DNA from: Planctomycetales bacterium
Lineage (GTDB): Bacteria > Planctomycetota > Planctomycetia > Isosphaerales > Isosphaeraceae
NCBI GenBank assembly: GCA_027449865.1
Contig: DAIDKV010000059.1
Coordinates: 1-61,901, forward strand
Direction: 5' to 3'
Length of the DNA: 61,901 nucleotides
The notes beneath the pieces were generated by a model, which did no database searches, was not told the origin of the DNA, and saw only the letters and a program-made list of their open reading frames with translations. Made by a program: the position numbers and the translations under genes. Below are positions 57,408 through 61,702 of the stretch, piece after piece. Numbering within the stretch: position 1 is the first letter of the stretch; each line of letters starts with the position of its first letter.

Positions 57408-58118
57408 ATGGGATCGGATCGCGACGAGGACGACGAGGTGGCGATCCGGGCGGTCGAGCTGCGGAAGGTATACGGCGCCAGGGATGCCCGGGTCGAGGCT
57501 CTCCGGGGAGTCTCCATTGAGGTCAAGAACGGCGAGCGCCTGGCCCTGCTGGGCAAGTCGGGCTCGGGAAAGTCGACACTCCTGAACCTGCTCGGCGGCC
57601 TCGACCGCCCCAGTTCGGGGCGTCTGCGAGTCGGCGGCCGGGATCTCGACCGGCTTTCAGGGCGTGAGATGGCCCGGTTCCGGTCGACGACCGTTGGCAT
57701 GATCTTCCAGTCGTTCAACCTGATTCCTTCGAGGTCGGCCACGGAAAACGTCGAACTGCCGATGATCTTCGCCGGCCGATCGCCACGCGATCGGAGGGCC
57801 GTCGCGCGAGAGGCGCTGGAGTCCGTGGGGCTGGGGGAGAGGATGGAACACCGGCCGGACCAGTTGAGCGGTGGCGAGAGCCAGCGAGTCGCCGTGGCCA
57901 GGGCGCTCGCCAATCGGCCCCGAGTTCTCCTGGCCGACGAGCCGACCGGCAACCTCGACAGCCAGACCGCCCGGCAAGTCATGGCGCTGATCCTCGACCA
58001 CGTTCGCGAGCACGCGGCCACTCTCGTCCTCGTCACCCACGACGAGGAACTGGCCGCGACCTGCACGGACCGGGTCGTCCGACTCGTCGACGGCCGGATC
58101 GCGGCCGAGTCTACCTGA
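57408..58118 (+). CDS. ABC transporter ATP-binding protein (MacB/LolD type)
   Basis: The 236-residue ATPase has Walker A LLGKSGSGKST, a Q-loop in MIFQSFNLIPSRSATENV, signature LSGGESQRVAVARALA, Walker B VLLADEPTGNLD and the switch His in LVTHDEE. The FQSFNLIP and DEPTGNLD segments are typical of the MacB/LolD/FtsE group that works with FtsX-like permeases. The permease gene follows after 25 bases. Substrate is probably a lipoprotein, lipid or small molecule moved from the inner membrane. Confidence 0.92.
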   Translation: MGSDRDEDDEVAIRAVELRKVYGARDARVEALRGVSIEVKNGERLALLGKSGSGKSTLLNLLGGLDRPSSGRLRVGGRDLDRLSGREMARFRSTTVGMIFQSFNLIPSRSATENVELPMIFAGRSPRDRRAVAREALESVGLGERMEHRPDQLSGGESQRVAVARALANRPRVLLADEPTGNLDSQTARQVMALILDHVREHAATLVLVTHDEELAATCTDRVVRLVDGRIAAEST

Positions 58119-58143
58119 CCGGGAGCCGACGGAGGATTGCCTC

Positions 58144-59682
58144 TTGCGCTGGTTTGACCTGTTTCGATGGGCCCTGGCCGCGCTCGGTCAGCAGAAGCTC
58201 CGGACGTCCCTGACCACGCTCGGGGTTGTCTTCGGCGCGTTTGTCCTTGCGGCGAGCCTCTCGATCAACGAGGGGGTCCAGGAGACGATCCAGCGCGAGG
58301 CGAGCAAGGGCGACGCCGCGCGCAAGGTGACGGTTCACCCCGCCTGGCGTGCGAACAGGGACAGCAAGAAGGATCAGGTGGAGGTCAAGGGGCGGATGTC
58401 GGCCGAGCGTCACGAGCGGATCCGCAAGGCTCTCGCCGATCGGCGCGGAGGAGGTGGCCTGGCCGAGCGGGTCGACCTGACCTCGGATCGACTGGAAACG
58501 CTTGCCCGGCTCCCACACGTCCGCCGGCTGATCCCGATCGTCGGCGGCCCGGTCGTCGCGACGCTGGGCCATCGGCCGGAGGATGCAAGCCTTTCGTCGG
58601 GCGCTGGCGAGGACCCCGAGTTTCGTAAACGGGTTGTTGCCGGCCGGGCGTTCGAGGCCGAGGACGAGCGGTCGGTTCTGCTCTCCGAGATGTTTGCGTA
58701 CCGGATCGGCCTGGTCGACGATGCCGATATCGCCCAGGTCATCGGCAAGCCCCTCCGGATCGAGTTCTGGAACCCCGAGGAGGGACCGAGCTTTGAGGTC
58801 TCACTCGCCGGCCGCTCGCGAGGCGGCGGCCGGGATGAGTGGCTGGCCCTCCGCCAACTCGCCTGGCAACTCCCGGGGATGCTCGACCAGTTCCGACTGA
58901 CCGCCGACGAGTCCTCGATCCTGAAAAAAGCGATCCGGCAACCGTCGGCCGCCGCGGTCCCGATCGATGCCGCCGACGATTACCAGGTCGTTGGGATCTT
59001 CCGCGAGCTGACCCACGAGGAAAACAAGGACGCCTGGAGCCGATTCCCCGCCGATACCGACCTGATCCTGCCTCGTCAGACGGCCGTCGATTTGTACTTC
59101 CGCGACCCGGCCCGCCGCAAGGGAGGCGTCCACCGCGCGGTCCTGCTCATCGACGACATGAGAAACGTGAAGGAGGTCGTGGACCGGGTCGAGGCCCTCG
59201 ACCTGCGCAGTGAATCGATCGTCCGCTTCGTTGAGCGCGAGCGGCTGACCTATCTTTTGATCTTCGGCGGGATGACTTGCGTGGCCGCGGTCGCCTTGCT
59301 CGTCTCGGCGCTCGGGATCGCGAACACGATGCTGATGAGCGTCCTTCAGCGCCGTCGCGAGATCGGGATCATGAAGGCGGTCGGCGCCGCTGACTGGCAG
59401 CTCCAGGCCCTCTTCCTGGTCGAAGGGGGGCTGATCGGCCTGATCGGCGGAGTCTCGGGCCTGCTGCTCGCCTGGACGATCTCGTTCCCGGGCGACGCCT
59501 GGGTTCGCTCGATGATCCGTCGCGACATGCAGATCGACCTTTCAGGCTCGATCTTCGCCTTCCCAGCCCGGATTGGTGTGATCGTTTTGTTCTTCACGAT
59601 CGGCGTGACGGTCGTGGCGGCACTTTACCCGGCCCGCCGCGCCTCGAAGGTCGACCCGGTCACGGCGCTCCGGCACGATTGA
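58144..59682 (+). CDS. MacB/FtsX-family ABC permease
   Basis: Start is a TTG at 58144 preceded by GGAGG. The 512-residue protein has an N-terminal helix (LRTSLTTLGVVFGAFVLAAS), a large periplasmic MacB-PCD-like domain, and three C-terminal helices with the FtsX signature LGIANTMLMSVLQRRREIGI then MKAVGA. Ends KVDPVTALRHD, the usual MacB-type tail. It is the partner of the ATPase encoded just upstream. Converges with the following minus-strand gene with only a 10-base gap and no visible terminator. Confidence 0.92.
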   Translation: MRWFDLFRWALAALGQQKLRTSLTTLGVVFGAFVLAASLSINEGVQETIQREASKGDAARKVTVHPAWRANRDSKKDQVEVKGRMSAERHERIRKALADRRGGGGLAERVDLTSDRLETLARLPHVRRLIPIVGGPVVATLGHRPEDASLSSGAGEDPEFRKRVVAGRAFEAEDERSVLLSEMFAYRIGLVDDADIAQVIGKPLRIEFWNPEEGPSFEVSLAGRSRGGGRDEWLALRQLAWQLPGMLDQFRLTADESSILKKAIRQPSAAAVPIDAADDYQVVGIFRELTHEENKDAWSRFPADTDLILPRQTAVDLYFRDPARRKGGVHRAVLLIDDMRNVKEVVDRVEALDLRSESIVRFVERERLTYLLIFGGMTCVAAVALLVSALGIANTMLMSVLQRRREIGIMKAVGAADWQLQALFLVEGGLIGLIGGVSGLLLAWTISFPGDAWVRSMIRRDMQIDLSGSIFAFPARIGVIVLFFTIGVTVVAALYPARRASKVDPVTALRHD

Positions 59683-59692
59683 CCGGCCTGGC

Positions 59693-61702
59693 TCAGGGCA
59701 ACCGGATCAGGCTGTTGTGAAAGAAGCCGGCCGAGTCGGGATTGCCGGTGTCCTCCTGAAATCTCTCGCCGTCGATCAGGAACTTGTATTCGTAGTCACC
59801 GGGGGCGAGTTCGATCGTCGCCGAATAGTTTCCCTTCGCATCCGGGCCAGCCATGGCGATGGGGTGATCCTTCCAGTCAGAGAACGAGCCGACCAGGGCG
59901 ACCGATTTCGAGAGCCTTTCCGGCCGGTGGCGGAACATGACGCGATACCGGCCGCTCGGTAGCCGTGTCGAGGTCGGCCGGCCAAGGGCGAGATCCTGGT
60001 CGGCCAGGACGTAATTGACATAGCCGACGTGCATCTCGTCCCAGGTCTGCTCGCCGAACGTCACGGCGCGTCGGGGGTCTGGATTGTTCGGGTTCTCGTC
60101 CGAGTTATCGAAGTGGGCCTCGGTGTGGAGGATCGTCCCCTCGGGCATCGGCTTCGGCGGGTTGAGGGCGTAGAGATTTTGCCAGTCGAACTCGTATCGG
60201 GGAACGTCGAGGAGAACCTCGTGCCGGCCGTCGGGATACCTGGCGACGAACCGCATCGACTTGCCCCGGAGGTGCATGTGCGGCAAAAGAGCGAGGAGCA
60301 TCGAGGGGCGCGAGAACCGGAAGTCGGCCCGCGAGACGTAGTCGGTCGCGCCGGGCGGTATCTGAAGACGAAGATTGAGCGCCATCCCCGACATCAATTC
60401 CTTGTGGACGGCCTTCGGATCGGCGAAGACCAGCCCGATCCGGCTCCGATCGACCTGCTTCGTGCCGCGGGGCGTATAGTGAAGCTGCAAGACAAGCTTC
60501 GAGCCCGCCGGGATCCGCTTCGCGACGCCGTCGGGCAGGGCGCGGGGAGGCATACCAGGAGCGTAGGCCGCGAGGAAGTCGCCGCCAGCCTCGTCGATCT
60601 TCTCCACCCCAGGCGGCAGGACATAGACCACAACGTGGTGGACAACCGACGGGTTGCCCGGCCGAACCTCGGAGGCCCGGATCCAGACATCGTGCGTTAG
60701 CTTTGGGTCGATCTCGACGAGCTGGTAGGGCATCGATCCCTCGGCCGGGATTTCCACCTCGCGGGGCATTTCCAGGATCAGGTCAGGCCGAGGGATTTGC
60801 CATCCCTGGACGAATCGGGGCGGCGGAGGCAGATCGGCCGGATTCCCCTCCGGCGCGCCCGCGGCCACCCATTCTCGGATCGTATTCTTCTCCGCCTCCG
60901 AGAGCCGCGCGTCATTCGCGAACGTGCCGTGTTCGGGCGAGGCGAGCCAGGGAGGCATCCGTCCCTCGTCAACGACCTCGTCGATCATGCTCGACCATCC
61001 GGCCGCCTGTCGGTAATCGGTCAGCGAAAACGGACCGATCTCGCCCGGGCGGTGGCAAGAAACACAGTGCGCCTGGAGGATACGAGAGACCTCCCTGGCG
61101 TAGGTCACCGTGCCCTCTCGGGCCGGCTTCGTGACCCGGCCGATCCGGCAGCCGACGGCCTTCGTTCTCGGCGTCCCGACCGGTCGACCAGCGAGGAGCG
61201 CGTCCAGCGCCTCGATCAGGTCGCGACGGGCCGCATCGGGGCGATGGATGCCAATAGCATACTGGTTGTCGATTCGACCCCGATAGGCGATCGCCCGCGC
61301 CCCGTCCAGCACAAAGACCTCGGGTGTGCGCTCGGCCCCGAGGCGGTCGGCCAGCTCGTTGCCGACGTCCTTAATGGCAACGAATGGCAGCCCATGGCGT
61401 TCTTTGAACCGGCCAATCGCCACCGGACCGTCCTGCTGGTTGGCGAAAACGCCGAAAAATCCCACGCCGCGCAGGTCATATTCGCGCGCAATCTGTGCCA
61501 GTTTCGGGGCGTAGATCTCGGCCAGGGGGCACTCGGTCCCGAGGAATGCCAGGACGACCACCTTCCGATCGCGGGCCTCGTCGAGCGTGTGCCAGGTTCC
61601 GCGGTGGTCCTGAAGTCGGAAGTCGGCCACCGACCTCGCGGGCTCGTTTGCCCCAATGAGACCGGCCAATGCCATGATCCCGACCAACCCGGTGACACCC
61701 AT
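59693..61702 (-). CDS. Redoxin + c-type cytochrome + copper monooxygenase-like + glycogen-binding fusion protein
   Basis: The ATG at 61702 has a perfect AAGGAGG. The 669-residue secreted protein has four parts. (1) A peroxiredoxin/thioredoxin-like fold (residues 25-170) with a single Cys in LGTECPLAEIYAP. (2) A c-type heme motif, HCVSCHRPGEIGPF (Cys213, Cys216, His217). (3) A copper type II monooxygenase-like pair of beta domains with HHVVVY (355-356), QLHYT (408) and LLPHMHLRGKS (475, 477). (4) A C-terminal AMPK/CBM48-type domain (598-669): SVALVGSFSDWKDHPIAM, then APGDYEYKFLIDGERFQED. Parts 1-3 recur together in planctomycetes. The glycogen-binding part at the end is unusual. It is probably a periplasmic oxidase; substrate unknown. 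Confidence 0.8.
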   Translation of the reverse strand: MGVTGLVGIMALAGLIGANEPARSVADFRLQDHRGTWHTLDEARDRKVVVLAFLGTECPLAEIYAPKLAQIAREYDLRGVGFFGVFANQQDGPVAIGRFKERHGLPFVAIKDVGNELADRLGAERTPEVFVLDGARAIAYRGRIDNQYAIGIHRPDAARRDLIEALDALLAGRPVGTPRTKAVGCRIGRVTKPAREGTVTYAREVSRILQAHCVSCHRPGEIGPFSLTDYRQAAGWSSMIDEVVDEGRMPPWLASPEHGTFANDARLSEAEKNTIREWVAAGAPEGNPADLPPPPRFVQGWQIPRPDLILEMPREVEIPAEGSMPYQLVEIDPKLTHDVWIRASEVRPGNPSVVHHVVVYVLPPGVEKIDEAGGDFLAAYAPGMPPRALPDGVAKRIPAGSKLVLQLHYTPRGTKQVDRSRIGLVFADPKAVHKELMSGMALNLRLQIPPGATDYVSRADFRFSRPSMLLALLPHMHLRGKSMRFVARYPDGRHEVLLDVPRYEFDWQNLYALNPPKPMPEGTILHTEAHFDNSDENPNNPDPRRAVTFGEQTWDEMHVGYVNYVLADQDLALGRPTSTRLPSGRYRVMFRHRPERLSKSVALVGSFSDWKDHPIAMAGPDAKGNYSATIELAPGDYEYKFLIDGERFQEDTGNPDSAGFFHNSLIRLP

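Follow-up and report, generated by a model that had tools for sequence, protein, structure and literature searches.

The window (the whole 61,901-nucleotide stretch of planctomycete DNA analyzed here) contains, near one end, an uninterrupted 669-amino-acid frame with an ATG start on the minus strand (59693 to 61702, with the stop at 59693-59695), which constitutes the whole candidate gene and whose orthologues align end to end. All of the parts of the gene described below are on this same strand. The frame codes, in order, for a thioredoxin-fold redoxin, a CXXCH heme c part, a PHM-fold copper part, and an AMPK/CBM48-type tail. The first-pass annotation of this DNA had proposed such a four-part fusion and quoted the motifs SVALVGSFSDW and YEYKFLIDG; both are found in the protein, and the fusion is real, with the same four-part protein recovered end to end in related genomes, such that the arrangement is more than a chance one. 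Residues 1 to 22 (61637 to 61702) form a signal-like hydrophobic N terminus, but because no positive charge precedes the hydrophobic run, the true start of the gene is uncertain. Proteins with a CXXCH heme site mature outside the cytoplasm, and such a site and the signal-like N terminus together suggest that the 669-residue protein is exported.

Three Pfam matches pass their curated cutoffs, namely AhpC-TSA (49.3 bits; cutoff, 26) and Redoxin (46.2; cutoff, 26.6), which together span residues 24 to 145, and AMPK1_CBM (PF16561; 36.8; cutoff, 26.8) at residues 598 to 649. Five others fall below theirs: Haem_bd (23.1; cutoff, 27), Cytochrome_CBB3 (20.2; cutoff, 27), CBM_48 (PF02922; 18.7; cutoff, 22.4), Cu2_monoox_C (PF03712; 20.9; cutoff, 23), and Cu2_monooxygen (PF01082; 11.8; cutoff, 30). 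We accept the heme and copper parts despite these low scores because their ligands are invariant and the fold matches. Ligand counts were taken from an alignment of 24 homologues (16 tailed and 8 tail-less) and from the 26-row alignment that served as input for structure modeling. The AlphaFold model of the whole protein has a mean pLDDT of 85.1 and a pTM of 0.79, with low confidence at residues 1 to 22 and 217 to 225. A search of solved structures returned 3u5r and 2cvb for residues 25 to 188, pullulanase and AMPK beta1 for the C terminus, and, weakly, PHM for residues 375 to 483.

The redoxin part (residues 25 to 188; 61139 to 61630) is identified by Pfam, fold, and residue counts, and in the whole-protein model it matches 3u5r with a Z score of 25.4. 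It shares its fold with TlpA/ResA-like redoxins (3u5r, 2cvb, and 2ywi; Z scores of 24 to 25), as well as a conserved second cysteine near the end of the domain. Its active site has a single cysteine, C58, which is present in 23 of the 24 homologues and in all 25 nongap rows of the modeling alignment, as is the second cysteine, C185, and there is no CXXC. Residue 55, three positions before C58, is Gly here and Gly, Ala, Ser, or Asn in all nongap rows; we take this position to be that of the first cysteine of CXXC in ResA-like proteins and of the Thr in peroxiredoxins. Because residue 55 is never Cys in either alignment while C58 and C185 are conserved, the first part is a one-Cys TlpA-like domain, reduced from the CXXC seen in ResA, and CXXC-type thiol-disulfide exchange can be rejected. 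The peroxiredoxin active site is PxxxTxxC, and its Thr is missing from this protein; the earlier label "peroxiredoxin-like" thus holds at the level of the superfamily but not as a peroxiredoxin, the domain being of the single-Cys TlpA/3u5r type. It may let electrons into the protein, remove peroxide, or look after the copper site.

The c-type cytochrome part (about residues 200 to 283; 60854 to 61105) is recognized by subthreshold Pfam matches and conserved ligands, and contains the heme motif CVSCH at residues 213 to 217 (61052 to 61066). C213, C216, H217, and M249 are present in all 24 homologues and in all nongap rows of the modeling alignment, and M249 is a candidate axial heme ligand; the c-type heme assignment of the first-pass annotation is borne out by this pattern.

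Residues 305 to 571 (59990 to 60790) form the PHM-fold dicopper core, supported by fold and by subthreshold Pfam matches. Residues 307 to 571 of the model match PHM with Z scores of about 20 over 245 to 249 residues (rmsd of 2.6 to 3), including PHM entry 5wja (Z score of 20.6, 246 residues, and rmsd of 2.6); across PHM entries, the Z scores of the core run from 17 to 21, and the core matches DBH structure 4zel with a Z score of 20.4. In the alignment with PHM, the CuH ligands are H355-H356 (60635 to 60640; PHM H107-H108) and H408 (60479 to 60481; PHM H172), the CuM histidines are H475 and H477 (60272 to 60280; PHM H242 and H244), and the CuM methionine is M557 (60032 to 60034), which we take to be PHM M314 from its DEM motif. 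PMC6123673 names H107, H108, and H172 as CuH ligands of PHM and shows copper bound by H242 and H244 in a PHM mutant, and M314 appears in the title of structure entry 1yi9. All six residues are invariant, being present in each of the 24 homologues and in every nongap row of the modeling alignment; the copper monooxygenase-like part proposed earlier is therefore well founded, and the loss of ligand conservation that would have spoken against it is not observed.

The copper core probably works like PHM in its metal chemistry, as its ligands and modeled fold indicate. In PHM, Arg240 holds the peptide carboxylate. The aligned site is L473, and none of the 24 homologues or the 26 rows of the modeling alignment has Arg there; the 24 homologues have Leu, Met, Ser, Phe, Val, or Thr. 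Because this site is never Arg, the core should act on a substrate other than that of PHM. The site of PHM N316 is Val or Ile in 20 of the 24 homologues. Peptidylglycine amidation can be rejected, since the Arg240 site is never Arg and a Pfam scan of the 669-residue protein reveals no fused lyase part. The protein thus has in common with PHM and DBH the fold of residues 305 to 571 and all six copper ligands, but differs in its fused heme c and redoxin, its identity of only ∼20%, and its subthreshold scores for both PHM Pfam halves. Electron delivery to copper, as had been suggested, is plausible in that a heme c lies beside a two-copper PHM core; the redoxin may or may not contribute. The LPMOs (AA families) have an N-terminal histidine brace and some carry CBMs, and with these CBM-bearing enzymes the protein shares a general concept, that of anchoring a copper oxygenase on a polysaccharide. 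It is nonetheless not an LPMO: its N-terminal part is a redoxin domain without the histidine brace, and its copper ligands are of the PHM type on a different fold. LPMO folds are not among the 50 matches listed for the whole model, which is not evidence that they are absent.

The tail (residues 575 to 669; 59696 to 59980) is an AMPK1_CBM/CBM48-type domain by Pfam and fold, and the earlier identification of an AMPK/CBM48-type end is confirmed by both PF16561 and structure prediction. Modeled alone from a 38-row alignment, it has a pLDDT of 96.2 and matches CBM48 folds with Z scores of 12 to 14 and rmsd values of 1.5 to 2.1. Its best-matching CBM48 domains belong to CE1 esterases (Z score of 13.8) and GH13 amylases (13.5 and 12.9), with the AMPK beta1 glycogen-binding domain close by (1z0m, 12.3; 1z0n, 12.0), and its sequence matches are of the AMPK and pullulanase types. 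It shares with AMPK beta1 and GH13 CBM48 domains the same fold (Z score of about 12) and three of four critical contacts, but has Phe for W133 of AMPK beta1, a longer loop after W610, and a changed C-terminal loop; and whereas the AMPK and GH13 modules sit on a kinase or an amylase, this one sits on a redox enzyme.

In AMPK beta1, W100, K126, W133, and N150 are critical for glycogen binding, as confirmed by mutation according to PMC4032982. Sequence alignment pairs these with W610, K640, F648, and N663, of which only F648 differs. We counted these sites in 31 fusion rows, having dropped two loci (L080, at a contig end, and L152, which is the same place as L082), an AMPK fragment, and L162, which is not a redoxin-heme-PHM enzyme. 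The W100 site is Trp in 28 and Asp in 3, K126 is Lys in all 31, W133 is Trp in 17, Phe in 7, Tyr in 6, and Leu in 1, and N150 is Asn in 29, with one Asp and one Glu. Outside the window's family, the AMPK residue is kept in 16/16, 16/16, 15/16, and 15/16 rows, respectively, and in 13 of the 15 rows from within the family the W133 site is Phe or Tyr. By conservation among 74 sites, the four rank 17th, 6th, 32nd, and 16th. AMPK-type contacts are thus retained across the wider fusion family, and in the window's family one aromatic has mostly been relaxed (Trp to Phe or Tyr). Absence of the aromatic glucan-contact residues would have counted against the first-pass interpretation, but they are mostly present.

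Among the nearest relatives of the tail from outside the class, four of the 21 rows (L164 to L167) were examined, all of which are N-terminal domains of Alpha-amylase (PF00128) proteins. A midpoint-rooted tree of 59 fetched CBM rows, built on few columns, has a branch (support, 95/96) that separates the fusions and the GH13, esterase, and M28 peptidase domains from standalone and GH57 domains. The peptidase (L162:148-1803), from another planctomycete family, combines M28 and PDZ domains with a C-terminal AMPK1_CBM, and the window's own genome encodes an esterase (PF00756) whose N terminus bears a CBM48-like domain (L039:464-1762). The standalone AMPK-type CBM proteins are about 100 to 135 amino acids long (L107, L111, L113, L115, L117, L123, L126, L136, and others); several are in Lentisphaerota and relatives, and their C-terminal loop is more AMPK-like.

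Some relative of the protein is present in all 45 genomes (21 genera) sampled from the window's family, Isosphaeraceae, the order-level set being the same 45. The tail-bearing fusion, whose frequency the first-pass annotation had proposed to survey, is found in 18 of the 45, in 9 of the 21 genera and 19 copies (contig ends truncate those in G018 and G009), and extends to further families of the class. A class-wide draw of 397 genomes with a 130-residue query spanning the copper end and the CBM (threshold, 1e-10) matched 41, which may be an undercount because ten candidates were scored per genome with a profile from the window's family; 10 genomes outside the family match over nearly the entire query, and others cover the copper end alone or the CBM alone. 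A phylum-wide draw matched 13 of 392 genomes at 1e-15, only the window and G093 doing so over the copper end as well. Among named genomes there are 22 loci with the fusion (L070 to L091; L076 and L080 are cut by contig ends), with carriers that include Singulisphaera acidiphila DSM 18658, Aquisphaera insulae, a Bythopirellula MAG, and Singulisphaera sp. GP187, which has two copies. The window's genome codes for eight strong relatives of the protein, and we found no assigned function for any of these eight.

Tail-less redoxin-heme c-PHM proteins occur in the same genomes (e.g., L002, L004, and L005), and retain the first three parts along with the ligands of copper and heme. In a 43-row maximum likelihood tree built from the redoxin, heme c, and PHM parts (29 rows tailed; 10 of the 14 tail-less rows chosen by hand, so that the paralogues are sampled in part), the tail label needs 2 changes, compared with a shuffled mean of 12.0, which fits one gain and one loss. 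The tail-less L002/L028 branch sits inside the CBM-bearing clade and looks like a secondary tail loss; the node uniting it with its closest tailed rows is weak (83/40), but the larger node that places it among tailed rows has a support of 95/93. A MAG labeled Omnitrophota has a tail-less redoxin-heme c-PHM protein (L132:327-2186) with 49% identity to that of the window, reflecting either transfer or misbinning, and we also note two PHM-like paralogues with in-frame stops (two TGA in G017:C279:1936-3267 and one TAG in G037:C1:1638406-1639590), which are perhaps decayed copies.

A MacB/FtsX-type ABC ATPase and permease (57408 to 59682) is convergent with the gene, and this neighbor is retained only in the window's near relatives. 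In another lineage (L079, L085, L086, and L090) an MBL-fold gene is convergent with the fusion, and at some loci a Ser/Thr kinase lies upstream. None of these neighbors (ABC transporter, MBL-fold, or kinase) at the examined loci indicates a glucan. GH13 counts per genome were also used to probe for a connection to glucan, but all 45 family genomes carry GH13, which does not track the fusion.

We propose that the protein is an exported enzyme of the Planctomycetia in which a heme-c-wired PHM-fold dicopper core is joined to a C-terminal CBM48/AMPK-type module. Heme c (C213-H217/M249) would hand electrons to the two sites, and the pair, once loaded with copper, would activate oxygen for hydroxylation of a substrate; the tail would anchor the enzyme to an alpha-glucan, or to a surface that carries one, near its substrate or partner. 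This is the best explanation of the whole protein, although we judge the chances of its being correct to be about even, and alpha-glucan tethering, likewise the best reading of the tail, is a similarly balanced call. The fusion suggests an oxidizing enzyme held on a polysaccharide, and the polysaccharide-directed oxidase raised in the first-pass annotation draws only indirect support from the conserved contact residues and the kinship with alpha-amylase domains. Several observations argue against the proposed explanation: the Phe at the W133 site here and the Asp at the W100 site in three fusion rows, the replacement of the AMPK C-terminal loop in the fusions, structural residues of the tail that are as conserved as the contact sites, and the intact copper site of the tail-less sister lineage. 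Related domains also sit on the M28 peptidase and on esterases, where an alpha-glucan is not the necessary ligand.

It is possible, though less likely than not, that the tail binds no sugar and serves as a spacer or protein-docking domain of CBM48 fold. Among the fold matches is the enterobactin esterase FES (3c8d, Z score of 11.7; 2b20, 10.7), whose CBM48-like domain is not known to bind glucan; the presence of a related domain on a peptidase points the same way, as does the alteration of one aromatic site in most of the window's family and of the other in 3 of 31 fusions. However, such a role does not account readily for the retention of the K126 and N150 residues (31/31 and 29/31), for a W133 site that is aromatic in 30 of 31 rows and Trp in nearly all of those outside the family, or for the clustering of the tail with GH13 domains. 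Binding to another polysaccharide (xylan, an exopolysaccharide, or a cell-surface glycan) seems improbable: CE1 feruloyl esterases supply the three best structural matches with their CBM48 domains (6rzn, 8bbp, and 8bf3, one of them solved with xylobiose), but these are only 20% identical to the tail, and the sequence matches and examined near relatives are of the AMPK, pullulanase, and alpha-amylase types. Least expected is a lytic-type enzyme whose PHM-fold copper site oxidizes the bound glucan itself, making it a polysaccharide monooxygenase with no kinship to the LPMO families. The conjunction of copper core, glucan-type tail, and built-in electron donor in one protein, and the replacement of the peptide-binding Arg in all homologues, which implies a changed substrate, would favor this, but the substrates of PHM and DBH are small molecules or the ends of peptides, and the core is commonly found in relatives that lack the tail, so its chemistry can do without glucan. 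In its full form, with redoxin and heme c feeding the two coppers and the tail presenting starch, glycogen, or a surface glucan, we consider it a long shot; if true, it would constitute an origin of polysaccharide monooxygenases independent of all LPMO families.

Each of the parts is already known; for their combination, a bacterial copper enzyme of PHM fold that ends in a CBM48-type module, searches of open-access papers turned up no description of a redoxin-heme-PHM-CBM protein. Detailed knowledge of PHM-type copper enzymes comes from the peptide and neurotransmitter pathways of animals, with ascorbate as the donor. PMC6123673 names ascorbate as the electron donor of PHM. With a bacterial enzyme that brings its own heme donor and a glucan-type anchor, the substrates of bacterial PHM-fold enzymes become testable, and so does the question of whether PHM copper chemistry serves on polysaccharides.
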